From the NCBI GenBank assembly GCA_015660315.1, contig DQLG01000283.1, positions 1 through 32,597 of the forward strand: a stretch of DNA of 32,597 bases, written 5' to 3'. Shown in pieces: positions 17,859-32,537 of the stretch. The notes beneath the pieces were generated by a model that saw nothing but the letters and a program-made list of their open reading frames with translations, ran no database searches and was not told where the DNA came from. Every line of letters begins with the position of its first letter. Positions within the stretch are counted from its first letter, which is position 1. Source of the stretch: Candidatus Latescibacterota bacterium (GTDB taxonomy: Bacteria; Latescibacterota; UBA2968; UBA8231). The position numbers and the translations under genes are program-made.

Positions 17859-18127
17859 GTTATTTCCAGTATGGCTAGCGGGCAAGTCCAATTCCAGCCA
17901 CAAGATAGACCAGGGAAAAGAGAGCGTCAAATAAGGCTGCTAATCCGTGGGAAAAATGAAGTCTAAGGCGTGCTTAACACATCGCTTATAACGACCCGAC
18001 AGAAATGTGTTTAGCAGGCGTGTCGCCTAGTGCAGAAAATCCCCGCAACAGCAATATCTGTATCCCGAAAAGGTGTGATCGGTCACTATTTTCTTTGCGA
18101 CAACGATGTCCCCTTCGATGGTATCTT

Positions 18128-18143
18128 GCGACAGATCTGTCGC
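18128..18143. promoter_or_regulatory. 16-bp palindrome, candidate enhancer-binding-protein site A
   Basis: GCGACAGATCTGTCGC is a perfect palindrome. Its centre lies about 95 bases before the -24 GG of the sigma-54-like promoter, about 119-120 bases before the predicted transcription start. A closely related site sits at 22797-22816 in front of the paralog at 23009, at nearly the same distance. That spacing suits an upstream activator sequence for a sigma-54 activator. The activator is not identified. Confidence 0.6.
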
Positions 18144-18227
18144 GCAATAGATGGCATTGAGACGGGTAGTAGACCTCATTTCTCGCAAATTGACCTGAAT
18201 AAGCGATTTATCAACCCCTCGGCACTG

Positions 18228-18244
18228 TTGGCACGGATTTTGTT
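18228..18244 (+). promoter_or_regulatory. Sigma-54-like -24/-12 promoter of membrane protein A
   Basis: TTGGCACGGATTTTGTT matches the consensus TTGGCACG-N4-TTGC-W except that the -12 GC is GT. The GG and the -12 G are separated by ten bases as required. The predicted start is near 18255, which gives an 84-base leader to the ATG at 18339. The copy at 22902-22918 has the same GT variation. Confidence 0.6.
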
Positions 18245-18338
18245 TTTGTCCACTGATATTCAGCGGATTGGCTCGTTTCGCATGCGGACACGGGCTTGTT
18301 CCGGTCGAGACCCTATACGACCCGGCTTTAGGTAGGTT

Positions 18339-20132
18339 ATGGACGAACCCGTTTCCGCACAGCGATGGATTATCAACCTGCCCTGCGATATGCTGTTCTT
18401 CATTGGCACCCCCCTGCTCTCATTGGGGGTGTTATTGCTCGCGGGAGCCTATTACGCATCGGTCGATATCGCCTGGTTCGTACTCGCTTTTTTCGCGGTG
18501 GGGCATCACTTGCCCGGCTTTATGCGCGCCTATGGCGAAAAGGAACTCTTCGATCACCACAAGGCCCAATTTCTCATTGCTCCAGTGGTGATCGCCGCCT
18601 TCGTCGGTTGGAGCGTCTACAACGGCCATTTGGGTTTCTTTATTTTTCTCGCGCTGTGGGACATGTGGCACTTCTTCATGCAGCACTTCGGTCTGATGCG
18701 GATTTACGAGGTCAAGCAGCGCAAGCCCTTCAATCTCAGTTCGCGGTTGGACTGGCTGCTGCTCGCCGTCTGGTACGGCTATATCATCATCGCCAGCCCG
18801 CACTACCTGATCAATTTCCTCGAGCGCTGCCATCGCTACGGCTTTGGCTTCTACACCTGGATAAGGCCGGAGCAGGTGCACTCCTTGCGCGAGTGGGCGC
18901 TCTATGCCGCCATCGCGCTCTCGGTAGTGTACGTAGCCAACGCCTTGCGCGAGTGGAGCAGCGGGGTACCCGTGGTCTGGCCCAAGCTATTCATTTCGCT
19001 GACGACATTCGCCACCGTCTACTACGCCTATATCGCCCTTGAGGATATCATCCTGGGTTATGCAATCGTCGCGCTGGCGCACGATATCCAGTATTTCGCC
19101 ATCGTCTGGATCTACAATAACGGGGTGCTCAAACGCTCGCGAGAACTGGGCGCCTCCTTCTTCCGCTTTCTCTTCACCGACGGTCGGTTCCGGCTGATCC
19201 TGCTCTACGTCGCGTTGATCCTAGCCTATGGCGGCATCGAGGCCATAGGAAGGGTGACGGGCAGTCGTGCTATCTACGACGTCGTCAAGGTGATCATCGT
19301 CACTTCGGCTTTTATGCACTATTACTACGATGGCTTCATCTGGAAAGTGCGCAAGAAGGAGTTTCGCAGAAATTTGGTGGAGGAGCGGGCAGGCGTTGGC
19401 GACGAGGCCGGGAATGGGATGCGCTGGTGGCACGGTCTGCGGCCGCCGGACGGGCAGAAATCGCACTGGGCTGGTTGGCCCTTTTTCCTCGGTTTTGGCG
19501 GTCGATCGTCCCGGCGCTCCATTGAATATGCGACCGAACTCGGCCGACAGCTGCTCTATTTTGGCGTGCCCGTTCTCTTTTTGGCCTGGACCGATACCGC
19601 CTACACCATTTCGGATGTCTCGGTGCGGGATTATCTGGCGCAACTGACTCCGAGCATGGCCAAAAGTCACGATGACTTAGGCGTGTCGTTCACCCGTGTG
19701 GGCGAGTTGGACCGGGCCATTGCGGCACATCTAAAAGCCATAGAGGTGGACGCCGGTTATGCACGCGCTCATACCCATCTGGGCATTGCCTACTCGCTCA
19801 AGGGAGACCGCGAACGGGCGATAGGGTTGCACCAACGGGCCATAGAGATCGATCCCGAATTGCCGCAGGTGCACTACAATCTCGGTGTCGACTATTTCGG
19901 TCTGGGGCAGTTGGCCGAAGCGCGGGCGGCTTTTGCCCAGGCCATCGTTATAGACGAACACTACAGCCGGGCCTATCTGGCATTGAGCGAGGTCTACGGC
20001 CGCGAGGGCGATTGGGCGCAGGCGCAAAAATATCGTGAACTGGCGCTGGAGGCGGACGAGGTTTCTAGACGGGGCGCGTTGAGCAGAAATGCGCTGCCTT
20101 GGACTACGGGCACCGCATTGAGCGATCACTGA
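18339..20132 (+). CDS. Histidine-motif polytopic membrane protein with TPR tail (paralog A)
   Basis: A 597-residue protein of a family I do not recognise by name. Residues of about 15-335 form roughly eight membrane segments with conserved histidines: GHHLP (H56, H57), W107-D-M-W-H111-FFMQ-H116, H248-DIQY and H327-YYYD-GFIWK. Their places at membrane borders suggest a bound metal or heme, as in membrane di-iron or Brp/Blh-type enzymes, but that is inference. One more hydrophobic segment lies near 404-418. Four TPRs follow (about 443-578). If that last segment spans the membrane, the TPR side follows from the topology, which I cannot fix. The ATG has AGGTAGG upstream. It is paralogous to the genes at 23009 and 31497 and is followed by the RIC gene. 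Confidence 0.85.
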   Translation: MDEPVSAQRWIINLPCDMLFFIGTPLLSLGVLLLAGAYYASVDIAWFVLAFFAVGHHLPGFMRAYGEKELFDHHKAQFLIAPVVIAAFVGWSVYNGHLGFFIFLALWDMWHFFMQHFGLMRIYEVKQRKPFNLSSRLDWLLLAVWYGYIIIASPHYLINFLERCHRYGFGFYTWIRPEQVHSLREWALYAAIALSVVYVANALREWSSGVPVVWPKLFISLTTFATVYYAYIALEDIILGYAIVALAHDIQYFAIVWIYNNGVLKRSRELGASFFRFLFTDGRFRLILLYVALILAYGGIEAIGRVTGSRAIYDVVKVIIVTSAFMHYYYDGFIWKVRKKEFRRNLVEERAGVGDEAGNGMRWWHGLRPPDGQKSHWAGWPFFLGFGGRSSRRSIEYATELGRQLLYFGVPVLFLAWTDTAYTISDVSVRDYLAQLTPSMAKSHDDLGVSFTRVGELDRAIAAHLKAIEVDAGYARAHTHLGIAYSLKGDRERAIGLHQRAIEIDPELPQVHYNLGVDYFGLGQLAEARAAFAQAIVIDEHYSRAYLALSEVYGREGDWAQAQKYRELALEADEVSRRGALSRNALPWTTGTALSDH

Positions 20133-20134
20133 CC

Positions 20135-20163
20135 GCTAGTCGTGCAACGAGGACACGACTGGC
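20135..20163 (+). promoter_or_regulatory. Intercistronic hairpin before RIC gene
   Basis: GCTAGTCGTG pairs with CACGACTGGC (ten pairs including one G-T wobble) around a nine-base loop. It lies in the 61-base gap between membrane protein A and the RIC gene. There is no T-run, so it is not a standard terminator and may affect mRNA stability or translation of the second gene. Confidence 0.4.
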
Positions 20164-20193
20164 GTCAAAATCATCTTACAGGGGAGAACGAAT

Positions 20194-20916
20194 ATGGAGC
20201 AAATCGATATCCACACTCCGATTGGCCAATTGGCGGTCGCCAACCCGGGTCGCTTGGGTTTGTTCGAGCATCTGGGGCTCGATTATTGTTGCACGGGTGG
20301 ACAGTCGTTGGAGGAGGCCTGCCGCGCGGTGGGAGTCGACGTAGAAGACGCGTTAGCGCAATGGGTGACCTACGATGCGGAGCGCACCGGTGTCGATGGA
20401 GGTGACCCGGACGGGCTCACGCTGTGCGAATTGGCCGACCACATTGAAGAGCGACACCATGTCTATTTGCGTCAGGTGCTGCCGGAGCTCGCGCAGATGC
20501 TCAAGAAAGTCGTTCACGTGCACAGGGACAGCCAGCCTTGGTTGGCCGACCTACAACAGGTTTTCTCCGGTCTCGCAGCCGAGCTCGATATGCATATGAT
20601 GAAGGAAGAGCAGGTGCTTTTTCCACTGGTCCGCGAGCTATCGATGGCGACGGTGTTACCGGTTTTTCACTGCGGTAGCGTCGACTGCCCAATCGCCGCG
20701 ATGGAACACGAGCACGACAGTGCAGACCAAGCTCTCAGGAGCATGCGGCGGTTGAGTGACGACTACAGGGCCCCACTGGGCGCTTGCAACACCTTTCGCG
20801 GCTTGATGGCCGGTCTGGCCGAGCTGGAAGAAGATCTGCACCTGCACATCCACAAGGAAAATAACATACTCTTCGCTCGCGCCAGCGCAGTGGAGGAGGG
20901 ATTGCGGAAAGGCTGA
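20194..20916 (+). CDS. Iron-sulfur cluster repair di-iron protein (RIC/YtfE/ScdA family)
   Basis: A 240-residue protein. The N-terminal ScdA_N domain has LGLDYCCTGGQSL with Cys32-Cys33. The C-terminal hemerythrin-like domain shows IEERHHVYLRQ (H88/H89), LDMHMMKEEQVLFP (H134, E138), MEHEHD (H172/H174) and HIHKENNILF (H216-H220, E222), which supply the di-iron ligands. RIC proteins restore Fe-S clusters and relieve damage after nitric oxide or oxidative stress, and act in the cytoplasm. GGGGAG precedes the ATG. It lies 61 bases after membrane protein A and is probably transcribed with it from the sigma-54-like promoter. It converges with the TPR lipoprotein gene. Confidence 0.93.
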   Translation: MEQIDIHTPIGQLAVANPGRLGLFEHLGLDYCCTGGQSLEEACRAVGVDVEDALAQWVTYDAERTGVDGGDPDGLTLCELADHIEERHHVYLRQVLPELAQMLKKVVHVHRDSQPWLADLQQVFSGLAAELDMHMMKEEQVLFPLVRELSMATVLPVFHCGSVDCPIAAMEHEHDSADQALRSMRRLSDDYRAPLGACNTFRGLMAGLAELEEDLHLHIHKENNILFARASAVEEGLRKG

Positions 20917-20935
20917 AGGCGATTGTGTCCTGTCG

Positions 20936-22639
20936 CTATTGGCTGCGGGCTGCAAGCCATGTCCGCGCGTGCCGCATTTGCGGTAGCTCTTCGTCGGCGT
21001 TGTTCCAATGCCGCAAAAAATCCCTGTAGGCCTCGACCGCCGCCGCCGTCTGGCCACTGAGTTCGTATGAGCGGGCCACACCCCACAGCGCATGCCCGTT
21101 GTGGGGGCGAATCTCAAGGGCCTTGGCGAAGGCTTGCCGCGCCGCTTGCCAGTGTTGCGCGCGCAACTGTGCCGCACCGAGGCTCTCCCACGCCAGCCGC
21201 GCGGATTTGGGCGGATCGGGATAACCCAATCTTTGCTGCTGTTCCGTCGCTTGCTGCAAGAGATCGACCGCGCTGGCGGATTCGTCCCGGGCACTGTGGA
21301 TATGACCCTTGAGGTCGAGGGCCCACAGGGAGATCGCATTGACGCGCCGCCGCGAGTAAAAGACGTCCCGGGTCTCTCCCGTTGAGAAGGTGAACTTCCA
21401 CTGAAATTCCTCGATCGCTTCGGCCTGCACTGCCGCTGCCGTCAAGCGTCCTTCCGCCACGGCCGCCATGCCCTTGGCGTAGGCTAGCGCGCAGTTGGCA
21501 TAGTCCTGGGCAAAGGTTTGCGCCAGGGTGTCGTTGGCGGTGATTTTGGCGAGTTCGCGGACGGCCTGCTGCCAGCGTCCGTAGCGCATGTGCAGACGCG
21601 GCAGGGCCATCCGACCCTGATAGAAGAACAGCGGCCGTCGGGCGTGCAGCGGCACTTTTGCCAAGCGTTCGGCCCATTGCAAACCCTCGCGATAGCGCCC
21701 GTCTTCGGCGCAGTTGGCCAGCAGATAGCTGAGGTTGTGCACGTAGTTCCAGGTGCGCGTTACCGGCACGCGCCGTCGAGCCATATAGCTCGAATCCACT
21801 TTCATCGCGGCAATGAAGGCTTGGCGCGCCCGTTCGTACATGCCCAGGCGATAATAAACGTGCCCGGGCATGTGCATGAGGTGGCCGGCATTAGGCGTTA
21901 AGGAGGGCAGCTTTTTTGCGCTGGGCAGCGCCTCTTGCAGATGCGGCCCCCCTTCGACCAGGTGAATCCAGTAGTGGTGCGCGCCGGGATGCTCGGGGTG
22001 GGAATCGAGCAGGTCGCGCAACAACTCTTGCAATCGAGGTTTGGCCAGGTCGGGGGGCAGGTCGAGATTCCTGTTGCGGACCAGAAAGCGGAAGAGGATG
22101 AGTTTGGCCTCGGCGTCGTCCGGATACTGGTCGATCAGCGCTTGCATCTGCCGGACATAGGCCGGGCCCCCGCGCCGATAGGGCAGCGAGTCGAGCAGGG
22201 TCGAGGCGCGGATATAGGACTGTTCATGTGCCGACGCCGTGGTCATCAGCGCCTTGGCCCTTTGCAAGGCCTGCCTTTTCTTGCGGCGGTGCCCCACTTT
22301 GTTGTTGGCCGTGATGGAGTAGTAGATGCCCCAGTGCGCCATGGCAGAGCTGCTGTCCAGGCGCGCCGCTTCCGCAAAGGCCAACATCGCCTCGTAGTAC
22401 CAGAAGCCATGTAGCAGGGACAAGCCCTGGTTGAAGTAGAGCTGCGCCCGTTCTGAGTGGGTGCTAATGGCCAGGGTGCTCTGGCCGACGCCTTCCATCA
22501 ACGGCGGTCGCAGCAGGGGGCCGGGCGGTTTTGTCGCGGCGCAGCCCAATAGCAGGCCGAACGCCAGCGCGATGGCGCTAGCTTGCAGACCGGTCGCTGG
22601 TTGGGGGTGTGCGCCGCCGGTCGTGAGTTGATCTGTCAT
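20936..22639 (-). CDS. TPR-repeat lipoprotein
   Basis: A 567-residue protein. Residues 1-33 form a lipoprotein signal with lipobox LLGC (Cys33). The rest is helical, with several TPR-like units. The first has YFNQGLSLLHGFWYYEAMLAF followed by ARLDSSSAMAHWGIYYS, a pattern seen in exported TPR proteins that accompany cytochrome and PQQ genes. A typical TPR closes the protein (HNGHALWGVARSYELSGQ). It probably acts as a scaffold at the membrane surface. I chose the ATG at 22639 because it places the hydrophobic signal near the N-terminus; the frame is open to 22753. It is transcribed divergently from the operon that begins at 23009. Confidence 0.82.
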   Translation of the reverse strand: MTDQLTTGGAHPQPATGLQASAIALAFGLLLGCAATKPPGPLLRPPLMEGVGQSTLAISTHSERAQLYFNQGLSLLHGFWYYEAMLAFAEAARLDSSSAMAHWGIYYSITANNKVGHRRKKRQALQRAKALMTTASAHEQSYIRASTLLDSLPYRRGGPAYVRQMQALIDQYPDDAEAKLILFRFLVRNRNLDLPPDLAKPRLQELLRDLLDSHPEHPGAHHYWIHLVEGGPHLQEALPSAKKLPSLTPNAGHLMHMPGHVYYRLGMYERARQAFIAAMKVDSSYMARRRVPVTRTWNYVHNLSYLLANCAEDGRYREGLQWAERLAKVPLHARRPLFFYQGRMALPRLHMRYGRWQQAVRELAKITANDTLAQTFAQDYANCALAYAKGMAAVAEGRLTAAAVQAEAIEEFQWKFTFSTGETRDVFYSRRRVNAISLWALDLKGHIHSARDESASAVDLLQQATEQQQRLGYPDPPKSARLAWESLGAAQLRAQHWQAARQAFAKALEIRPHNGHALWGVARSYELSGQTAAAVEAYRDFLRHWNNADEELPQMRHARTWLAARSQ

Positions 22640-22790
22640 AGTCGGCTGGTGGTTGCGGGTGGAGGTAGGCGGTCGGGCGGTTTGGTCTCGGTGGGCAATA
22701 GCAAAATTCCGGCCAGGAAAATAGACAGTGTACTGGGGTTGAGATTGGCGCACCTGTCTTGTGTTCTATGACGACCACGTCTCTATTTGA

Positions 22791-22822
22791 CCATTATCGC
22801 GACAGGCTTGTCGCGACAATGG
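22791..22822. promoter_or_regulatory. Palindromic site B, candidate enhancer-binding-protein site
   Basis: The core TCGCGACA-GGCT-TGTCGCGA (22797-22816) is a perfect inverted repeat, extended by CCATT/AATGG with one A-C mismatch. It shares GCGACAG-N2-[CT]TGTCGCG with site A. The centre is about 98 bases before the -24 GG and about 122 bases before the predicted start, which matches site A within three bases. Confidence 0.6.
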
Positions 22823-22901
22823 CGGGTTTTGCCGGCGGCTTTTATCGCTAATCCCGTCATTATTCACTCTATTTAAGAAATTCTGCGCCGGCGTTTGTTT
22901 A

Positions 22902-22918
22902 ATGGCATGAAAATTGTT
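22902..22918 (+). promoter_or_regulatory. Sigma-54-like -24/-12 promoter of the operon from 23009
   Basis: ATGGCATGAAAATTGTT matches TGGCACG-N4-TTGC-W apart from T for C in the -24 box and GT for GC at -12. The spacing is GG-N10-GT, the same as in promoter A. The predicted start is near 22929, leaving an 80-base leader before the ATG at 23009. Confidence 0.58.
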
Positions 22919-23008: not shown

Positions 23009-24913
23009 ATGACGACTGCGACTGCTACTAGCACAACTCGCGATCACAGGTGGATAATCTCGCCGGTGCACGATACGCTCTTTTTTATTTTTACCCCGGT
23101 GCTGGCGTTTGCGATTCTGGTGCCTCTGCGGACGTCGTGGGATTCGCAGGCCATCCAATTCTTCATCCTGTGTTTCTTCGCCCTCGGACATCACTTCCCG
23201 ACCTGGCTGCGGGCCTATGGCGAGCCCGATTTGCTCAATAATTACAAGGAGAAGTTCATCATTGCGCCCCTGGTCGTCTTGGCCGTCGTGGGGTTGGCGC
23301 AATTCTATGTGCTGCACGGCTTGTTCTTGATGGTGGTGATCTGGGAGGTCTGGCACCTCTTCATGCAGCACTACGGCGTCATGCGCATCTACGACGCCAA
23401 GCAGAAGATCTTCGCCAAGCGGGACGTGCACCTGGACTGGCTGCTAACCTTCTTCGCTTTCCTGACGGTCATCTTTTATAGTGCCGAGTATATGCACCGC
23501 ATCTTCGACACCTACTTGAAAGTGGGTCTGACGTTTTTTGATCCCGCGGTGTTCGCAATACTGCAGCCCCTGCTGCTCGCGATCACGCTGGTCATCGCCG
23601 CGGCCTATGTCTGGAATATCGTCCAGCGCCTGCACCGGAGGCAGCCCGTGAGTTGGCCGAAGATCGCCTCTATGGCGTCGGTGCTCTTTCTCGCCTTCTT
23701 CGGCTTCATTTATATCGGCGACCTAGTGATCGGCTACGCGGCGTTCGCGATGTATCACGACGTGCAGTATTTCGCCATCGTCTGGGTCTACGATAATCAG
23801 TTGGTCAATAAGGGGCAAAAGCGCACCACGGCGTTCCTGCGGACCCTTTTCGCTTCGCGGGCGTTGCCGCTGGTCGCCCTTTATATGCTGGTGTGTTTCA
23901 GTTATGGCAGCATCAATCTGCTGGTGGGGTATCTGAATTCGGGCTTGGCCATCAAGATCGTCGAAATCTTCGTCATCAGCTCGACGCTTTTGCACTACTA
24001 TTACGACGGCGTTATCTGGAAGGTGCGGCAGCGGGACACGCGGGCTTATCTGGGGGTGGAGGAAGATCCCGAGCCGGACCGGCACAGGGAAGTATTCGAT
24101 TTGTTCAAGTTGAATACTGGGGTCCATCGCCTGGGCAACTACCTAAGGGAAACGGGCCGTCAGTTGCTCTATTTCGCCCTGCCGGTGGCACTGCTGACCC
24201 TGGTCCAGCTCTACTGGCCGGTGGACGCGGTCCAGGCGCGGGAGGATTTTGCCGAGGTCTTTCCCGACTTGCCGGGGGCGCACAACAACCTGGGCGTGGC
24301 CTATGCCGGTCACGGCGATGTGGAAAGGGCGCGGCAGGAGTACGAAAAATCGGTGGTGCTCGATCCCTCCTTCTACGAAGCCCACCTGAACCTGGGCTTG
24401 GTCCACGCCCGCCAAGGGCGGGTGCAGGAGGCCCATCGCGAGTACGAGATCGCCCTGCAACTCAAGCCCGATTACGTGCAGGCGCTCAACGCCCAGGGCC
24501 TGGTCCTCATGGGCAGAGACGAGCACGAAGAAGCCATCGCGCGTTTTGAGGCGGCGGTGGGGGAATTTGACTATGCCCCGGCCTACAACAATCTGGGGCT
24601 GGCGCTATTGCAGCAGGGGGATTTTGCGCGGGCGGTTGCAGCCTGGCACAAAGCCATCGACATTGCCCCCCGCAACGCGTCTTATCACTTCAACTTGGGC
24701 CTGGCTTATGAGCAGCAGGGCAGCGATGGGCAAGCCCTTGCGGCCTTCAAAGAAGCTGTAGCGCTGCAACCAGACTATGTCAAAGCCCATCTGAGTATGG
24801 TCCGCACTTACCGGCGGGCGGGCAAGCTCAATCAGGCGCGGCAGGCACTGCAGCGGCTGCTCGAGTTGGATCCTGGCAACCAGGCCATAATCCGCATGCT
24901 GGATCAGCTTTGA
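23009..24913 (+). CDS. Histidine-motif polytopic membrane protein with TPR tail (paralog B)
   Basis: A 634-residue paralog of the protein at 18339. The membrane part (about residues 20-340) keeps all the motifs: GHHFP (H61, H62), W112-E-V-W-H116-LFMQ-H121-YG-VMRIYD, H250-DVQYFAIVW and H329-YYYD-GVIWKVR. A further hydrophobic segment near 385-402 precedes about six TPRs (422-625). AAGAGGAG lies upstream of the ATG. It is the first gene of a run that continues to the right edge, and its TGA overlaps the ATG of the PQQ dehydrogenase gene. Conserved His and Asp/Glu near membrane borders suggest a metal or heme enzyme or electron carrier. Neither the cofactor nor the reaction is known. Confidence 0.85.
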   Translation: MTTATATSTTRDHRWIISPVHDTLFFIFTPVLAFAILVPLRTSWDSQAIQFFILCFFALGHHFPTWLRAYGEPDLLNNYKEKFIIAPLVVLAVVGLAQFYVLHGLFLMVVIWEVWHLFMQHYGVMRIYDAKQKIFAKRDVHLDWLLTFFAFLTVIFYSAEYMHRIFDTYLKVGLTFFDPAVFAILQPLLLAITLVIAAAYVWNIVQRLHRRQPVSWPKIASMASVLFLAFFGFIYIGDLVIGYAAFAMYHDVQYFAIVWVYDNQLVNKGQKRTTAFLRTLFASRALPLVALYMLVCFSYGSINLLVGYLNSGLAIKIVEIFVISSTLLHYYYDGVIWKVRQRDTRAYLGVEEDPEPDRHREVFDLFKLNTGVHRLGNYLRETGRQLLYFALPVALLTLVQLYWPVDAVQAREDFAEVFPDLPGAHNNLGVAYAGHGDVERARQEYEKSVVLDPSFYEAHLNLGLVHARQGRVQEAHREYEIALQLKPDYVQALNAQGLVLMGRDEHEEAIARFEAAVGEFDYAPAYNNLGLALLQQGDFARAVAAWHKAIDIAPRNASYHFNLGLAYEQQGSDGQALAAFKEAVALQPDYVKAHLSMVRTYRRAGKLNQARQALQRLLELDPGNQAIIRMLDQL

Positions 24914-27828
24914 TGCAGGATCGGGGAGGCACCGCTTGGTCTAACAAGGCACTGGTGGTTTTATCGGTGCTCGCGTTGCTCGCGGCGGGCGTCTGTTTTT
25001 TCAGTGCTTGCTCGTCGCCGACTGCGCCCGTCGGCGATTGGCGCTATCACAGCGGGGACGCGGCCAGCAGCAATTTCACCCAGTTGGATCAGATCGATCG
25101 CAGCAATGTTGACCAGTTGCGCATTCTTTGGCGCTGGCAGGCGCCCGACTGGGATATAGTCCAATCGGGGCAGCGGGTGATGTACGGCGAACACCAGTCG
25201 ACGCCATTGGCCGTCGATGGCGTGCTCTATGTCAGCACCCCGCTCAATCAGGTGGCGGCGATCGATGCGGCCAGCGGCCGGACGCTGTGGACTTATGACC
25301 CCGAGTCGTGGAAAAAACCCGCTTGGGCCAGCGGCCGCCACCGCGGGGTCTCCTATTGGACCGACGGCGAGGTCGAGCGCCTGTTCTTCGGCACCCAGGA
25401 CGCCTATCTGATCGCCCTCGACGCCCGGACCGGCCAACCCGCGGCGGAGTTCGGGCGCGGTGGTCGCGTCGATTTGGCCGAGGGCCTGCGGCGGCCGATC
25501 GACCGTCGCGAATACGCCGTCATGTCGCCGCCGATCGTCTGTCGCGACGTCGTCGTCGTCGGATCCTCGATCCTCGATTCCCACTTTTCTAGCCGGGAGC
25601 CGAAACGGGTCGTAGCTCCCGGCGACGTGCGCGGATTTGCCGTGCGCAGCGGGCAGCAGTTGTGGCGTTTCCAGTCCGTGCCGCAGGAGGGTGAGGCGGG
25701 CAACGAGACCTGGGGCGACGGCGCCTGGCGCGATTATGGCGGTGTCAACGTGTGGACGATGATGAGCGCCGACGAGGACCTGGGCTATGTCTATCTGCCC
25801 TTCAGTTCCCCCAACAACGATTTCTACGGGGGCGCGCGGCCAGGCGACAATCTTTTTTCCGGCAGCCTGGTCTGCCTCGACGCACAGAGCGGCGAACGCG
25901 TCTGGCACTACCAGATCATGCGCCACGAGCTGTGGGACTACGATCTCGCGGCGGCGCCGGTGCTGACGGATATCGTCGTCGACGGCCAAAGGATCAAAGC
26001 CGTGGCGCAGGTGACCAAGCAGGGATTCTGCTTTGTATTGGACCGGGAGAATGGCAAACCGGTCTGGCCGATCGAAGACCGTGCCGTGCCCGCTTCAACG
26101 GTACCGGGCGAACGCGCGGCCGCGCGCCAGCCTTTCCCCACGCGACCGCCGCCTTTTGAGCGCCAGGGTTTGCTCGCGGACGACCTGATTGATTTCACGC
26201 CCGAATTGCGCCAGCGCGCCCAGGAGATTATCGCGCCCTATGGCGAGAGTCCGCTCTACGCGCCGCCCTCGTTAGAGGGCACCGTGGTTATGCCCGGCAT
26301 CGGCGGCGGCGCCAATTGGTCGGGGGCTGCGGTCGATCCGCAAAAGGGCGTGCTCTACGTGCCCTCCTTTACCCACGCGACGCTCGTATGGCTGCAAAAG
26401 TCCGCCAGCCCCGATGCCTATCACGCCTACTTCGGCCGCTTCAGCAACTCCCTTGCGGGCCCGGACGGCCTGCCGCTCAGCAAGCCGCCCTACGGCCGCA
26501 TTACCGCGATCGATCTCAACTCGGGGGAAGCGCTGTGGATGAAAGCGGTCGGCCGTGGTCCGGTCGACCACCCGGCGATCCGCCACCTCGGCCTGTCCGA
26601 TTTGGGCTGGGATCGGCGGGTCTTTCCGCTCTTGACTCCGAGCTTGCTCTTTGCCGCGCCGCATCCGGCCAATTCACTGCGCAGCGTGCAAAACTACTTC
26701 GTCGACGACGAAGCCTTGCTCTGGGCTTACGATCCGGCGAATGGCGACCGGCTGGCGAGTGTCGAGCTGCCCGGCAATGCCCGGGGCAATCCCATGAGTC
26801 TGGCGGTCGATGGTCGCCAGTTGATCGTCGTGCCCATCGGCGGTGGCGACCGGCCGGCCGAGCTGGTGGCGTTGGGGCTGCCCCTGAGCGAGGATGAGCG
26901 GGCGGCCGACCGCCTATTGCGCTTGGACGCGGACCATCCGCGGTACTATCGTGCGCTCGACGCATTGGACGGCGGCGAGATGGCCGTTTTGCGCCAGCTA
27001 CTGCAAGACCATCCGCAACTGGGTGTGGCGCGCGGTTATCTGGGCCAAGCCCATGGTTATCCGTCTCTGCGGGGAGCGACCTTGCTGCACCATGTGGCCG
27101 GCCATGCGACGCGCAAGCGGCTGCCGGAAAACGCCGTCGCCATTGCCGAGTTGTTGCTGGACCACGGCGCGGTAGTCGATGCAGTGACGGAGGGCGGAGC
27201 GACGCCCTTGGAACTGGTCGCCGGCAGCGCGCACGCGCGTTGGGCGGGATTGCAGAGCGAGCTCATTGCGGCGTTGGTGAAAGGCGGGGCGGATGTCGCC
27301 AGAGAAGACGGCAAATACGTCTGGCTGGCGCTGGTCGGCGGCGAGCGGGAAGCCGCCACCGCTCTGGTGGCCAATGGCGCGCCCGTCGATCTGCGTTTTG
27401 CCGCCGGTCTCGACCGCAGCGATTTGATGGCGACCTTCTTTGGCGACGACGGCCTCAGGGCGGGGGCCGGGGGGCTCTATCGGCCCGACTCTATCCGACC
27501 TGTGGATTTGAGCGATCAGCAAATCCTCGACGAGGCGCTCGCCTATGCTTGCCGCAATGGCAGTCTTAAGGCCGCCGAGTATCTGCTCGCGCGAGGCGCC
27601 AATATAGATGCCAAACCCGACGGCTTCTCGCCAGTAGTCGGCCAGGGCAGCACCGTGCTGCACAAGGCGGTCGAAGCCAATAACCGCGAGGTGTTGCAGT
27701 ATCTGCTCGCGCGCGGGGCCGATGCCACGATCAGGGATAATCGCTTCAATGCTACGCCGCGCGGTTGGACCGAGTTTTTGGGTTATCCCGAGTTGATGCG
27801 CGTCATGCGGGAATTCGCAGCGAATTAA
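24913..27828 (+). CDS. PQQ-dependent dehydrogenase fused to ankyrin repeats, lipoprotein
   Basis: A 971-residue protein. A signal with a lipobox-like FSAC (Cys33) suggests anchoring on the outer face of a membrane. Residues of about 40-660 form the eight-bladed quinoprotein propeller, with GVNVWTMMSADEDLGYVYLP, NDFYGGARPGDNLFSGSLV and HELWDYDLAAAP typical of glucose/quinate/pyranose-type PQQ dehydrogenases. The Asp in WDYD is a usual active-site residue. From about 690 to 965 come ankyrin repeats (for example STVLHKAVEANNREVLQYLL and ARGADATIRD). No heme c motif is present, so electrons must pass to another protein. The ATG at 24913 overlaps the preceding stop (TGATG). The ankyrin fusion is uncommon, and the substrate is not predictable. 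Confidence 0.9.
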   Translation: MQDRGGTAWSNKALVVLSVLALLAAGVCFFSACSSPTAPVGDWRYHSGDAASSNFTQLDQIDRSNVDQLRILWRWQAPDWDIVQSGQRVMYGEHQSTPLAVDGVLYVSTPLNQVAAIDAASGRTLWTYDPESWKKPAWASGRHRGVSYWTDGEVERLFFGTQDAYLIALDARTGQPAAEFGRGGRVDLAEGLRRPIDRREYAVMSPPIVCRDVVVVGSSILDSHFSSREPKRVVAPGDVRGFAVRSGQQLWRFQSVPQEGEAGNETWGDGAWRDYGGVNVWTMMSADEDLGYVYLPFSSPNNDFYGGARPGDNLFSGSLVCLDAQSGERVWHYQIMRHELWDYDLAAAPVLTDIVVDGQRIKAVAQVTKQGFCFVLDRENGKPVWPIEDRAVPASTVPGERAAARQPFPTRPPPFERQGLLADDLIDFTPELRQRAQEIIAPYGESPLYAPPSLEGTVVMPGIGGGANWSGAAVDPQKGVLYVPSFTHATLVWLQKSASPDAYHAYFGRFSNSLAGPDGLPLSKPPYGRITAIDLNSGEALWMKAVGRGPVDHPAIRHLGLSDLGWDRRVFPLLTPSLLFAAPHPANSLRSVQNYFVDDEALLWAYDPANGDRLASVELPGNARGNPMSLAVDGRQLIVVPIGGGDRPAELVALGLPLSEDERAADRLLRLDADHPRYYRALDALDGGEMAVLRQLLQDHPQLGVARGYLGQAHGYPSLRGATLLHHVAGHATRKRLPENAVAIAELLLDHGAVVDAVTEGGATPLELVAGSAHARWAGLQSELIAALVKGGADVAREDGKYVWLALVGGEREAATALVANGAPVDLRFAAGLDRSDLMATFFGDDGLRAGAGGLYRPDSIRPVDLSDQQILDEALAYACRNGSLKAAEYLLARGANIDAKPDGFSPVVGQGSTVLHKAVEANNREVLQYLLARGADATIRDNRFNATPRGWTEFLGYPELMRVMREFAAN

Positions 27829-27862: not shown

Positions 27863-27899
27863 GCGTTTGTAAACGCGAAGTGCCAAGGGAGACCTTGGC
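27863..27899 (+). promoter_or_regulatory. Two small hairpins before halogenase-like gene
   Basis: GCGTTT-GT-AAACGC (27863-27876) and GCCAAGG-GAGA-CCTTGGC (27882-27899) lie in the 99-base gap between the PQQ dehydrogenase stop and the ATG at 27928. The second has a GNRA tetraloop (GAGA), which favours an RNA structure. There is no T-run. They could modulate mRNA stability or internal processing. Confidence 0.4.
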
Positions 27900-27927
27900 G
27901 AACGAGTCCACGACGAAGGGAAACAAG

Positions 27928-29172
27928 ATGACAAATGCATCTGCCGCAAACGATTCCTACGACGTCGTCGTCGCCGGCGGCGGCCCGGCCGGCGCGACTT
28001 TGGCCGCATTTCTCGCGCGCGCCGGTTACCGTTGCCTCATCTTCGAACGCGCGAAGTTCCCCCGCTACCATATCGGTGAATCCCTTATCCCGCAGACCTA
28101 CGGCACGCTCGACCGCTTGGGGCTGTTGCCCAAGTTGAGGGCTTCGAACTTTCCGCAAAAGCACAGCGTGCGCTTCGTATCGCCCACCGGCAGGGTCTCG
28201 AGTCCGTTCTACTTCTCGGATAGAATCCAGGGCGAGGGGGCGCAGACATGGCAGGTAGAGCGCGGCGAATTCGATCGCATGATGCTCGACCACGCCCGCG
28301 AACAGGGCGTGGAAGTGCGCGAGGAAACTCGGGTTGAAGAGGTGCTGTTCGCAGGAGAGCGCGCCGTGGGTTTACGCGCCGTCCGGGAAGGCGCGCAAGC
28401 ATACGAGATCGACGCGCGGATCGTGGTGGACGCATCGGGCGGGGCGACGCTTATCGGACGCCAGCTCGGGTTGCGGGGGGATGTCCCGGGGCTGGTGAAA
28501 GCTTCGATCTGGACGTATTATCGCGGCGGCGCGCGCCTCGAAGGCATCGACGCCGGCGAAACGACGATTTTCCACATTGGCGAAGGCGGCTGGTTTTGGT
28601 ATATCCCGCTACCCGATGACCTGGTCAGCGTCGGCATCGTGGCCTCGCCCGAATATCTCTTTGCCCAGACCGAGGAAAAGGAAGCGATTTTCCTCGGCGA
28701 GGTCGAGCGTTGCGCTCCGCTCAAAGAACGGCTCGCCCGGGCCGAGCACGTCGGCCCGGTCCGCGGTTATCGCCAGTTGGCCTACGCGAATCGGCAGACC
28801 TCCGGCGCGGGTTGGCTGATGGTCGGCGACGCCCGGGCCTTTCTCGATCCGATCTACTCCTCGGGGCTCTTCCTCGCCCTGGCTTCGGCCGAGCTGGCGG
28901 CGGAGTGCGCATGCGAGGCGCTGGCGGCGGATGATCTTTCCGCCGCCCGGCTGGGGCGGTTTGAGCCGGAGTTGACGGCGGGGGTCGAGGTGATCCGGCG
29001 ATTGATCCACGCCTTCTACGATCCGCAATTCAGTTTCGGCGCTTTCGTCGAGCGCTTTCCTGGGCAGCGCGGTGCACTCATCGACTGTCTGACCGGGGAC
29101 GTGCTCGACAAGGACATGAGCCCTTTCCTCGCGGCGCTAGCCCAGATGACGTCTCCACCAGAGCCGTTTTGA
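27928..29172 (+). CDS. Flavin-dependent halogenase-like FAD oxidoreductase
   Basis: A 414-residue flavoprotein. The FAD-binding AGGGPAGA is at residues 16-23, and VGDARAFLDPIYSSG is the second FAD motif near 309-323. The halogenase signature W-x-W-x-I-P is present as WFWYIP (222-227). K78 in FPQKHSVRF matches the position of the catalytic Lys in halogenases of the CmlS/PltA type. Such enzymes use FADH2, O2 and a halide to halogenate a substrate, usually with a separate flavin reductase, which is absent here. Geranylgeranyl-reductase-like oxidoreductases are the alternative. AAGGGA precedes the ATG at 27928. The longer frame from GTG at 27880 runs through a hairpin. Confidence 0.82.
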   Translation: MTNASAANDSYDVVVAGGGPAGATLAAFLARAGYRCLIFERAKFPRYHIGESLIPQTYGTLDRLGLLPKLRASNFPQKHSVRFVSPTGRVSSPFYFSDRIQGEGAQTWQVERGEFDRMMLDHAREQGVEVREETRVEEVLFAGERAVGLRAVREGAQAYEIDARIVVDASGGATLIGRQLGLRGDVPGLVKASIWTYYRGGARLEGIDAGETTIFHIGEGGWFWYIPLPDDLVSVGIVASPEYLFAQTEEKEAIFLGEVERCAPLKERLARAEHVGPVRGYRQLAYANRQTSGAGWLMVGDARAFLDPIYSSGLFLALASAELAAECACEALAADDLSAARLGRFEPELTAGVEVIRRLIHAFYDPQFSFGAFVERFPGQRGALIDCLTGDVLDKDMSPFLAALAQMTSPPEPF

Positions 29173-29177
29173 TCCGG

Positions 29178-29762
29178 ATGTATGCATTTAAAGCCCTTAT
29201 CGTTTTGCTCGCGGCGCTAGCGACGGTAACTGGTGCTTGGTTGTGGCATGTGTCGGCGGCGGAGTCGTCGGTGCTCGATCTGGCAGATAGACCGATCGAC
29301 CCCTTCGCCGCCGACGGCACTGCGGCGACCGTGCTGATTTTCGTGCGCACCGATTGCCCGACCTCCAACCGCTATGCACCGGAGGTGCAGCGGCTATTCG
29401 ACGAATACGCGTCCCGCAACGTGGCCTTCTGGCTGGTCTACGTCGATCGCGGCGAAACGCCGGTGGAGATTCGCCGCCACCTGGTCGAATACGGCTATCA
29501 GTTGCCCGCGGTGCGCGATATGCGGCATGCCCTGGTCGATATGAGCGAAGCCACGGTCACGCCGGAAGCGGCAGTATTCGCACCTGATGGGGAGGTGGTC
29601 TATCGCGGTCGTATCGACAACCGCTATACCGAGTTTGGCAAGGGCCGCGCCGCGCCCACCCGCCGCGACCTGGAGCAGGCGCTGGACGCGGTGCTGGCCG
29701 GTCGCCGCGTGCTTCATGCCAGGACGCAGTCGGTGGGTTGTTATATCGAGGACCTGAAATAA
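29178..29762 (+). CDS. Membrane-anchored redoxin domain protein
   Basis: A 194-residue protein with an N-terminal hydrophobic segment (residues 4-24), which is either a signal peptide or an anchor. A thioredoxin-fold redoxin domain follows. The active site is RTDCPTSNRYAPEV, with a single Cys60 where thioredoxins have C-x2-C. A second conserved Cys lies at the C-terminus in SVGCYIEDLK (Cys188). Proteins of this kind often sit beside cytochrome/PHM-type copper monooxygenase genes, as here, and may deliver electrons or protect the copper site. The start is uncertain. A TTG at 29169 overlaps the halogenase stop, and the ATG at 29178 lies five bases after it. Its stop overlaps the next ATG (TAATG). 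Confidence 0.85.
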   Translation: MYAFKALIVLLAALATVTGAWLWHVSAAESSVLDLADRPIDPFAADGTAATVLIFVRTDCPTSNRYAPEVQRLFDEYASRNVAFWLVYVDRGETPVEIRRHLVEYGYQLPAVRDMRHALVDMSEATVTPEAAVFAPDGEVVYRGRIDNRYTEFGKGRAAPTRRDLEQALDAVLAGRRVLHARTQSVGCYIEDLK

Positions 29763-31468
29763 TGCGCAGGCGAATCGAGTTTGTGCCGCTATTCGCCTGC
29801 TGTGTGCTCGCTGCGATGTGCAGCGGCTGCCAGGAACAAGGGCCGTCCGGCGGGGGGCCAGTGACCTTTAATCGCGATTTGGCCCCGATCGTGCTGGCGA
29901 CTTGCGCCGAGTGTCACCGCCCCGGCGCGTCGGGCCCGTTTCCTCTATTGAGCTACGAGGATGTGAAAAAGCACTCGACGCAGATCGTCGAAGTGACGGC
30001 TTCGGGGTATATGCCGCCGTGGAAACCCGACGCCGGCTATGGCGAGTTCGTCGGCGCGCGTCGGCTCCAGCCCGAGCAGGTCCTGGCGTTTGAGCAGTGG
30101 GTCGTCGATGGCGAGCTCGAAGGAGATCCCGTCGAGCTGCCAGAGCCGCATTGGAATAGCGACTGGCAACTGGGAAAGCCGGATCTGGTGGTGCAATTGC
30201 AGGAGCCCTATATGCTGGCCGGGGGCGGGATCGACGTCTATCGCAATTTCGCAATTCCCCTCCCGGTGGCGACTAGGCGCTATGTGGAAGCCGTGGAATT
30301 TCGCACTCACAATGAGCTCGTCACCCATCACGCCGTGGTGATGCTCGACCCCACCGGCAAGGCCAGGCTGCACGACGAGCGCGACGACGAGCCGGGGTTC
30401 GGCGGCATGGAGTTCGGCGATGCGCAGGGCCCCGACGGCCACTTTATTGGCTGGACACCCGGTAAAACCCCGTTTAGGGACCCGGACCTGGCGTGGCGGT
30501 TGGATCCGGGTACCGACCTGGTCGTGCAATTGCACATGTTGCCTTCGGGCAAGCCGGAGGAGGTCCAGGTCAGCGTCGGGCTCTTTTTCACCGACCGACC
30601 GCCGACCCGCCAATCGGCACTTTTGCGCTTGAGCAGCAAGATTTTGGACATTCCACCCGGTGCGCCGGATTACGCGGTGGCGGATGCCTATGTCTTACCC
30701 GTGGACGTGGAGGTGATCAGCGTTTATCCGCACGCCCACTACCTGGGCAAGCGGATCGCGGCTTTCGCCACTTTGCCGGACGGGACTGTGCAGTGGCTCA
30801 TCCGCATGAGCGAGTGGGATTTCGCCTGGCAGGACGAATATCGCTATGTCCGGCCTGTCTTCCTGCCCAAGGGCACGACCTTACAGGTGGAGTTCACCTT
30901 CGACAATTCGGCCGCCAACCCGTTTAATCCCCGCGACCCGCCCGTCCGGGTCTTCTACGGTCGGGGCTCGTACGACGAGATGGCCGATTTGACGCTACAG
31001 GTAGTGCCGCGCAGCGGAGGGGACCGGGATATTTTGCGCTGGGACCATCAGCGCAAGTGGTTGGCGCAGGAAATGGAAGGTTTGCAGACCGTGTTAAAGG
31101 CCCATCCCGAGCAACCCGACAACCACCACACGCTGGCCATGCTCTACCAGCAGACCGGGCGGGGCGAAGAGGCCTTGTCCCACTTTGCCGAGGCACTGCG
31201 CCTCAAACCGGATTATGCCGAAGCCCATGTCAATATGGGAATCGCCCTGGCGTCGCGTCGCGATTTGCCCGGCGCCATTGAGCACTTGCAGCGCGCGCTG
31301 GCGATAAAGTTGGATTATGTGGAGGCGCATTTCAATTTGGGTTTGGTACTGCAGATGGTGGGCCGCACCCAAGAAGCCCGGCGGCATCTGGCCATCGTGG
31401 TGGCCCAGCGCCCGGAGATGGCCGGCGCCATCGAGAGCCGCCTCGCCCGATTGGCGGGGTCGAATTAG
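29762..31468 (+). CDS. Cytochrome c/copper type II ascorbate-dependent (PHM-like) monooxygenase/TPR fusion
   Basis: A 568-residue exported protein. A lipoprotein-type signal ends at CSGC (about residue 23). A cytochrome c motif C48-AE-C51-H52 follows, with M84 in MPPW as a possible axial ligand. Residues of about 130-415 form two PHM-like domains with the full copper set: H189-H190 and H258 for CuH, and H324-x-H326 (YPHAHYLG) with M407 for CuM. About three TPRs (451-553) end the protein. PHM-type enzymes hydroxylate C-H bonds with O2 and a reductant, and here the attached heme and the redoxin next door could supply electrons. The ATG overlaps the redoxin stop. The substrate is unknown. Confidence 0.88.
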   Translation: MRRRIEFVPLFACCVLAAMCSGCQEQGPSGGGPVTFNRDLAPIVLATCAECHRPGASGPFPLLSYEDVKKHSTQIVEVTASGYMPPWKPDAGYGEFVGARRLQPEQVLAFEQWVVDGELEGDPVELPEPHWNSDWQLGKPDLVVQLQEPYMLAGGGIDVYRNFAIPLPVATRRYVEAVEFRTHNELVTHHAVVMLDPTGKARLHDERDDEPGFGGMEFGDAQGPDGHFIGWTPGKTPFRDPDLAWRLDPGTDLVVQLHMLPSGKPEEVQVSVGLFFTDRPPTRQSALLRLSSKILDIPPGAPDYAVADAYVLPVDVEVISVYPHAHYLGKRIAAFATLPDGTVQWLIRMSEWDFAWQDEYRYVRPVFLPKGTTLQVEFTFDNSAANPFNPRDPPVRVFYGRGSYDEMADLTLQVVPRSGGDRDILRWDHQRKWLAQEMEGLQTVLKAHPEQPDNHHTLAMLYQQTGRGEEALSHFAEALRLKPDYAEAHVNMGIALASRRDLPGAIEHLQRALAIKLDYVEAHFNLGLVLQMVGRTQEARRHLAIVVAQRPEMAGAIESRLARLAGSN

Positions 31469-31496
31469 CCGTTTTCCCCCTCGAAGAGGAGCCGCA

Positions 31497-32537
31497 ATGG
31501 ACAGCACCGTTTTCCGCCCGGCCTACATCGTAGACCGCAAGCACGATTATCTCTGGTTCATATCCCTGCCCTTCGCCGCCGTGGCCTTTGCGGTGATGGC
31601 GCAGCAATACTTGCCGGGCGGGGCGCTGGCCGCAGTCACTTTCTGGATAACAGCGCCGCATTTTTTCCTCACCGGGGTGCGCCTCTACGGCTCGCCGATC
31701 GAGTTTCAGCGCTGGCGGGAACGCCTGATCCTCAGCCCGGTGCTGCTCGTCCTGCTGGCCTTTGTCCTGATCAAGTACGCGCCGCTGACCCTGGTGCTGC
31801 TGGTCACCCTGTGGGACTATCAGCACAGTCTGATGCAGCAGCACGGATTTGCGCGCATCTACGACTACAAGGCCAAGGCCGGGACGACCAGTACCAAATC
31901 CTTCGACCTTTATTTTAACTGGGTCTTCTTCGTCAATATGCTGCTGGTCTCGCCGCTATTTTCCACCGTCTGGGTGCGCACGCTGCACGAGTGGAGCATC
32001 CCGGTCGGCACCGAGACCGTGCAATTGGTGCAGGATCTGAGTTGGATCGTTACCATCGCCTACGGGTTGGTCTACGTCGGGCACGCGATCTGGTGCGTGC
32101 GCAAGGGCTACGCGCTCAATCCACTGAAATATCTCTTCCTCTTCGCCAGTTATTTCCTCTGGTACTATATCAGCTTCACCACCAGCTATCTGATGGTCTA
32201 TATGCTGGCGCACCGCATTATGCACGGTATGCAGTACAATGTCATAATCTACTTTTTCAATCGCACCAGGGTCGAGCGCACGGGCGGGGATTCGGCCCTG
32301 CTGCGCTATCTGGCCGAGGCCAAGAACTTCAAGGGCTTCCTGTTCATCTGCGCTATCTGCACGCTGGTCTGGATCGCCCTTACCGAAGGTCATATGGGCC
32401 CCCTGGGTTTCGGGATGGCCCGCGCCGACCTGGATCTGCTCAGTTATTCCCTGGTTAGTTCCTTCGCCATGATCCACTATTGGTACGACGCCTTTATCTG
32501 GAAGGTGCACCGGACCGAAACCCAGAAAGGTCTCTGA
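31497..32537 (+). CDS. Histidine-motif polytopic membrane protein without TPR (paralog C)
   Basis: A 346-residue membrane protein of about eight hydrophobic segments, related to those at 18339 and 23009. It retains W106-D-Y-Q-H110-SLMQ, the R-IYD-K segment, H243-GMQY and H327-YWYD-AFIWKVH. It differs at two sites. GHH is replaced by PHF (H55 only), and MQHFG becomes MQQHG, which moves the second His by one residue. An additional H239 lies four residues before H243. It ends after the last motif and has no TPR tail, but the protein encoded just upstream ends in TPRs. GAAGAGGAG precedes the ATG at 31497, and the frame from 31317 is an out-of-frame extension into the PHM gene. Its function is unknown. 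Confidence 0.84.
   Translation: MDSTVFRPAYIVDRKHDYLWFISLPFAAVAFAVMAQQYLPGGALAAVTFWITAPHFFLTGVRLYGSPIEFQRWRERLILSPVLLVLLAFVLIKYAPLTLVLLVTLWDYQHSLMQQHGFARIYDYKAKAGTTSTKSFDLYFNWVFFVNMLLVSPLFSTVWVRTLHEWSIPVGTETVQLVQDLSWIVTIAYGLVYVGHAIWCVRKGYALNPLKYLFLFASYFLWYYISFTTSYLMVYMLAHRIMHGMQYNVIIYFFNRTRVERTGGDSALLRYLAEAKNFKGFLFICAICTLVWIALTEGHMGPLGFGMARADLDLLSYSLVSSFAMIHYWYDAFIWKVHRTETQKGL

Follow-up and report, generated by a model that had tools for sequence, protein, structure and literature searches.

A putative sigma-54 regulon with matched palindromic enhancer sites around a four-histidine membrane protein family in a Latescibacterota bacterium

Sigma-54 promoters controlled by NtrC, NorR, PspF and the Desulfovibrio enhancer-binding proteins (EBPs) combine a −24/−12 element with paired palindromes about 100 bp upstream, in genomes that hold rpoN and EBP genes, and a single intergenic enhancer can serve divergent promoters. 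A locus of a Candidatus Latescibacterota bacterium has the same layout, including a candidate enhancer between divergent promoters, but it contains no gene for the activator. The kind of switch is already known; the new parts are the motif GCGACA-N4-TGTCGC, which appears to be uncatalogued, the putative bidirectional enhancer and the target genes. We know of no characterised EBP with this site, and literature text searches for the motif together with sigma-54 gave no match to a described EBP site. The half-site does have a parallel outside this class. The RegA/PrrA proteins (ActR, RoxR) have no AAA+ domain and do not act as sigma-54 activators; they share the GCGAC/GTCGC half-sites, and the Fis-type helix-turn-helix (HTH) of PrrA (1umq) resembles those of the C46 regulator of this genome and of EBPs linked to the palindrome in other phyla. 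Inverted repeats of the GCGNC type are bound by RegA, which is the counterpart of PrrA; its listed sites, for example GCGACCGTTCGTCGC, are 15-mers with an N3 spacer (PMC5359404), whereas the sites here are 16 bp long with N4. The spacers of PrrA sites are said to vary. The sequence-only reading had left the half-site without a parallel, a claim that falls as written with this match to RegA/PrrA-type GCGNC half-sites.

The window, the whole stretch of 32,597 nucleotides that was analysed, contains two paralogs that lie behind these promoters. Paralog A (18339..20132, + strand) joins TPR repeats to a multi-helix membrane domain in which four histidines are invariant, and 61 nt past A starts the gene of a RIC/YtfE/ScdA-type di-iron Fe-S repair protein (20194..20916, +; TIGR03652 above cut-off), which is probably on the same transcript. 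A TPR protein whose N-terminus resembles a lipobox (20936..22639, −) is divergent from paralog B (23009..24913, +), in which a membrane domain of the same type as that of A is again joined to TPR repeats. The B gene run continues with a PQQ-dependent dehydrogenase-type beta-propeller with C-terminal ankyrin repeats, whose gene overlaps B (24910..27828, +), a halogenase/QhpG-like FAD-dependent oxidoreductase (27880..29172, +), a thioredoxin-like protein (29169..29762, +), a TPR protein that weakly matches cytochrome c (29738..31468, +) and a third paralog, which has the A/B membrane domain but no TPRs (31317..32537, +; homology over 31497-32534). Most genes of this run overlap, and we infer one transcript for it. 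The combination of a PQQ-dehydrogenase-type propeller with C-terminal ankyrin repeats (24910-27828) looks unusual.

The multi-helix membrane family is found at 18339-19400, 23009-24200 and 31497-32534 of the window; in A and B it is joined to TPR repeats. H56, H111, H248 and H327 (A numbering) are invariant, together with further polar residues. The membrane domain has no Pfam match in A, B or the third paralog, and the domain of A, modelled at pLDDT 75.5, has no PDB match by fold (E≤0.001) or by sequence profile.

The main palindromic sites are GCGACAGATCTGTCGC upstream of A (18128..18143) and TCGCGACAGGCTTGTCGCGA upstream of B (22797..22816), the latter reading TCGCGACA-GGCT-TGTCGCGA; both are without assigned strand, both were found where the sequence-only reading had placed them, and both are called on sequence, genome count and shuffles. 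A pattern search of the 5.56-Mb draft genome gave four exact copies of GCGACA-N4-TGTCGC, and the copies before A and B are the only intergenic ones, the remaining two lying inside coding sequences. With up to one mismatch there are 28 copies in the genome against 24 for the reversed control, so that only the exact palindrome is informative (all genome-wide statistics given here are pattern searches of the draft genome with reversed-pattern controls). When the upstream regions of A and B were shuffled with dinucleotides preserved, 0 of 5000 pairs had in common an inverted repeat of the same 6-mer with the same spacer.

Each main palindrome is followed by a −24/−12 element, TGGCACGGATTTTGTT for A (18229..18244, +) and TGGCATGAAAATTGTT for B (22903..22918, +), again at the positions proposed before. 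Scored against a hand-weighted consensus, they rank first and third among the 65,164 window positions. The gap between palindrome and element is 85 nt at A and 88 nt at B, the distance from the palindrome centre to the −24 GG measures 94.5 and 97.5 bp (earlier given as about 95 and 98), and both palindromes fall within the 80-200 bp upstream range of sigma-54 enhancers. Both elements fit the strict pattern TGGCAYG-N4-TTGY, which arose in 4 of 5000 shuffled upstream regions of A and 7 of 5000 of B; in the whole genome it occurs 19 times, compared to 11 times for the reversed control. The shuffle counts of element and palindrome bear out the claim that the matched parts are hard to get by chance. 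The −12 boxes on the + strand both read TTGTT, as had been noted, which is weaker than TTGC and counts against the sigma-54 reading. Setting the start about 12 nt past the −12 G, transcription is predicted to begin near 18254 (+) for A and 22928 (+) for B, with leaders of about 85 and 81 nt (84 and 80 in the earlier prediction).

We found two further parts at this locus that are absent from the sequence-only reading. The first is a second, weaker enhancer site with the core GAC-N6-GTC exactly 31 bp upstream of each main palindrome, again without assigned strand: GCGACAACGATGTCCC at A (18097..18112), an 11/12 match, and ATGACGACCACGTCTC at B (22768..22783), whose match of only 7/12 counts against the proposal. 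This core occurs 23 times in the window (background 7e-4 per position), and the only two pairs of it in the whole window no more than 70 bp apart are those of A and B, both at 31 bp. A spacing of 31 bp corresponds to three helical turns and would fit two EBP dimers on the same face of the DNA. The second part is a third −24/−12 element, TGGCCGGAATTTTGCT (22700..22715, −), that points toward the TPR lipoprotein gene from a distance of 83 nt to the B palindrome and ranks seventh of 65,164. It reads TGGCCGG-N4-TTGC, with two −24 positions off the strict pattern, and the probability of meeting so high a score by chance among 21 positions is about 0.002. The divergent start is predicted near 22690 (−), leaving a leader of about 50 nt to the ATG at 22639. 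Judged from this arrangement, the B palindrome may be bidirectional, serving both the B gene run and the divergent TPR-lipoprotein gene. At the A palindrome the window scan gave no divergent sigma-54 promoter (best score 4.8, rank 250).

The relatedness of A and B (35% identical over the membrane domain) raises the question whether the upstream palindromes were copied along with the genes, or arose by chance, and have no regulatory meaning. The palindromes agree at 13 of 16 positions and their flanks at 22/60 and 20/60; flanks this dissimilar speak against duplication while the palindrome, the core of the −31 site and the −24/−12 element match. Duplication also leaves the divergent third promoter unaccounted for, and the shuffle tests argue against chance. 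We consider this reading very improbable.

The sigma-54 reading hinged on rpoN, and the gene is present in the genome (Sigma54_DBD, E=6.7e-62), together with strong EBP AAA+ matches, nine complete and two partial. Credible intergenic sigma-54 promoters also precede pspA-like, amt and hsp20-like genes (products by our own reading), and none of these promoters has GCGACA-N4-TGTCGC. The string QPIAQPIAQP is present both in the truncated EBP that ends contig C296 and in the HTH fragment with which contig C247 begins (G000; L054, L164), so the two contigs probably adjoin.

The agreement of the half-site with RegA ChIP-seq sites such as GCGACCGTTCGTCGC (PMC5359404) would suit a different arrangement, in which a non-EBP regulator of the RegA/PrrA type, or another dimeric factor, binds the palindromes and works with sigma-70, the −24/−12 elements being incidental. 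In an HTH_8 scan of the genome the matches above cut-off were confined to EBPs or EBP fragments, with no stand-alone REC plus Fis-HTH regulator found in the 84% complete draft. No sigma-70 consensus site is directed at A or B, and an activator working with sigma-70 would be unusually distant at about 120 bp from the start. Three strong −24/−12 elements at matched distance would also be left unexplained, and we regard control through sigma-70 as distinctly unlikely.

Control through sigma-54 gains from what is seen in other phyla. Among 85,000 species genomes, the palindrome followed by a strict sigma-54 element at 72-102 nt occurs at 31 loci, against about 2 expected from uniform-composition arithmetic alone, and 7 of the 31 have a further copy (at least 11/12) within 150 bp upstream. 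Four Zixibacteria loci and one Cloacimonadota locus have an EBP gene directly before tandem palindromes, and in those Zixibacteria the palindromes are kept while the surrounding DNA has largely diverged. Like the promoters of A and B, these promoters (L124, L139, L141, L145 and L130) have the exact palindrome, 94-100 nt before TGGCA..TTGC, and tandem sites. They differ in the adjacent EBP gene, in a distance of 64-68 bp between tandem sites, and in their targets, which are a GxxExxY-like protein (by our reading) or a response-regulator EBP. Each of these genomes has one such promoter region, so the layout there is local. This recurrence is independent evidence, at the level of sequence, for the motif as a putative EBP enhancer.

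The Zixibacteria loci (L124, L139/L213, L141, L145) show a conserved unit composed of the EBP gene, tandem sites 67-68 bp apart, the sigma-54 promoter and the GxxExxY-like gene. In the Cloacimonadota locus (L130) two EBP genes flank three perfect palindromes spaced 64 bp apart, and in Planctomycetes the exact palindrome precedes a sigma-54-like element at glnA-like and amt-like genes (L146, L153, L140). Several of the 31 loci are nif genes, perhaps by coincidental overlap with NifA sites, and were for that reason left out of the support. The NifA enhancer site, which we take to be TGT-N10-ACA, is absent from both palindrome regions of A and B on inspection, and a NifA reading was set aside.

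Within the phylum, the comparison with related loci gave a mixed answer to the expectation that palindrome and spacing be conserved: the layout recurs elsewhere, but the A orthologues are without this control and B has no close orthologue. Orthologues of A are 67-76% identical through genus and family and lie in other operons without the palindrome (L063-L075, L079, L080). No relative in 64 genomes of the phylum is more than 57% identical to B, and the B paralogues at 53-57% (L018-L028, L046) are likewise in other operons without the palindrome. In these 64 genomes the full architecture occurs in non-coding DNA at this locus only; the other full matches, in C206 and its counterpart in G005 and in G052, seem to lie in coding sequence. 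The looser pattern GACAN4TGTC-N74-104-TGGCN7TTGY has 16 matches in 25 family genomes, 3 of them in the window and several in coding sequences, compared to 1 for the reversed control. One match in the genus-mate G006 is intergenic and lies upstream of a histidine-kinase-like gene; its two sites are separated by 30 bp, and the gap measures 83 nt. A conserved AAGACATGTCTT palindrome is found before an MTVAP-type B paralogue in G000 and G005 (L046, L024), without a clear sigma-54 element.

It had been suggested to look for an NtrC-family activator gene near the locus, and the annotation of the window contig has no EBP gene. With the draft genome at 84% completeness, the actual EBP may be missing from it. 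The palindrome-linked EBPs of other phyla have a common recognition helix, [MLI][HQD]R-xxx-QR, and by hand alignment its best match in the genome is the C46 regulator (GMHRSSFQRLLKKH; mean BLOSUM 64), followed by C66 at 51, all other EBPs scoring 36 or less. C46 has REC, AAA+ and HTH_8 domains, and its gene adjoins, and comes after, a PAS histidine-kinase gene. It resembles the NtrX/NtrC two-component EBPs in its REC-AAA+-Fis order and in its HTH, whose best PDB match is NtrX (5m7n, E=3e-6), with PrrA (1umq) as a weak match; it differs from them in a GAFTNA loop in place of GAFTGA and in a RegA-like QR recognition helix. NorR with the same loop change, G266N, is still active and even constitutive (PMC2941729). 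Neither rpoN nor the EBP genes of C46, C66 and C518 have a palindrome of at least 10/12 with N4 spacing nearby. The genus-mate G005 has a C46 orthologue that is 94% identical, yet no exact palindrome-promoter outside coding sequences, which weakens the case for C46. We name C46 as the leading candidate, and only tentatively as the activator.

The position of a RIC/YtfE-type gene directly past A draws attention to NorR, since RIC is a classic nitrosative-stress gene, and an NO-responsive EBP of the NorR type could control the locus through the same sigma-54 architecture. NorR too works with several enhancer sites, and the C145 and C82 EBPs have GAF-like N-termini before the AAA+ domain. The HTHs of C145 and C82 are, however, unlike those of the palindrome-linked EBPs, C145 adjoins an amt-type sigma-54 target, and what is presumably the NorR enhancer site, GT-N7-AC, is absent from both palindromes on inspection. 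We regard a NorR-type activator as unlikely.

The architecture, as read from the DNA, very likely reflects functional sigma-54 control by one EBP, and with good confidence we propose that the locus forms a sigma-54 regulon of its own. The sequences, their spacings and rarity, rpoN and the EBPs of the genome and the recurrence of the layout elsewhere are observed; we infer that an EBP binds and activates, that the genes are co-regulated, and which EBP is involved. An AAA+ EBP with a Fis-type HTH would bind two sites 31 bp apart (core GAC-N6-GTC, the strong site being GCGACA-N4-TGTCGC), then contact RNA polymerase-sigma-54 held at −24/−12 elements whose distance to the palindrome centre is 92-98 bp, and open the promoters by ATP hydrolysis. 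Site pair A would act on the A-RIC genes and site pair B on two opposed promoters, one for the B gene run and the other for the divergent TPR-lipoprotein gene. The sequence-only proposal of one EBP on matched sigma-54 promoters is well supported by the palindromes, their spacing, the −31 sites, the divergent promoter and the recurrence beside EBP genes, and its suggestion that this EBP controls the whole region fits, since the promoters cover A-RIC and the B run as well as the TPR lipoprotein gene. The inducing signal may be redox or nitrosative stress, a suggestion somewhat short of an even chance, for which the sole grounds are the presence of the RIC gene and of redox enzymes among the putative targets. 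It is conceivable, more speculatively, that an EBP branch with the RegA/PrrA-like helix [MLI][HQD]R-xxx-QR uses GCGACA-N4-TGTCGC across several poorly studied phyla, and that here it runs a redox/nitrosative-stress regulon around the four-histidine membrane family from an enhancer that fires both ways. If so, there would be a motif-to-helix rule for sigma-54 activators with seemingly uncatalogued sites, and regulons would become predictable in uncultured phyla. The Fe-S repair protein, the PQQ-type dehydrogenase, the redox enzymes and the four-histidine membrane family would belong to one regulon, which would be a first clue to the function of this membrane family.
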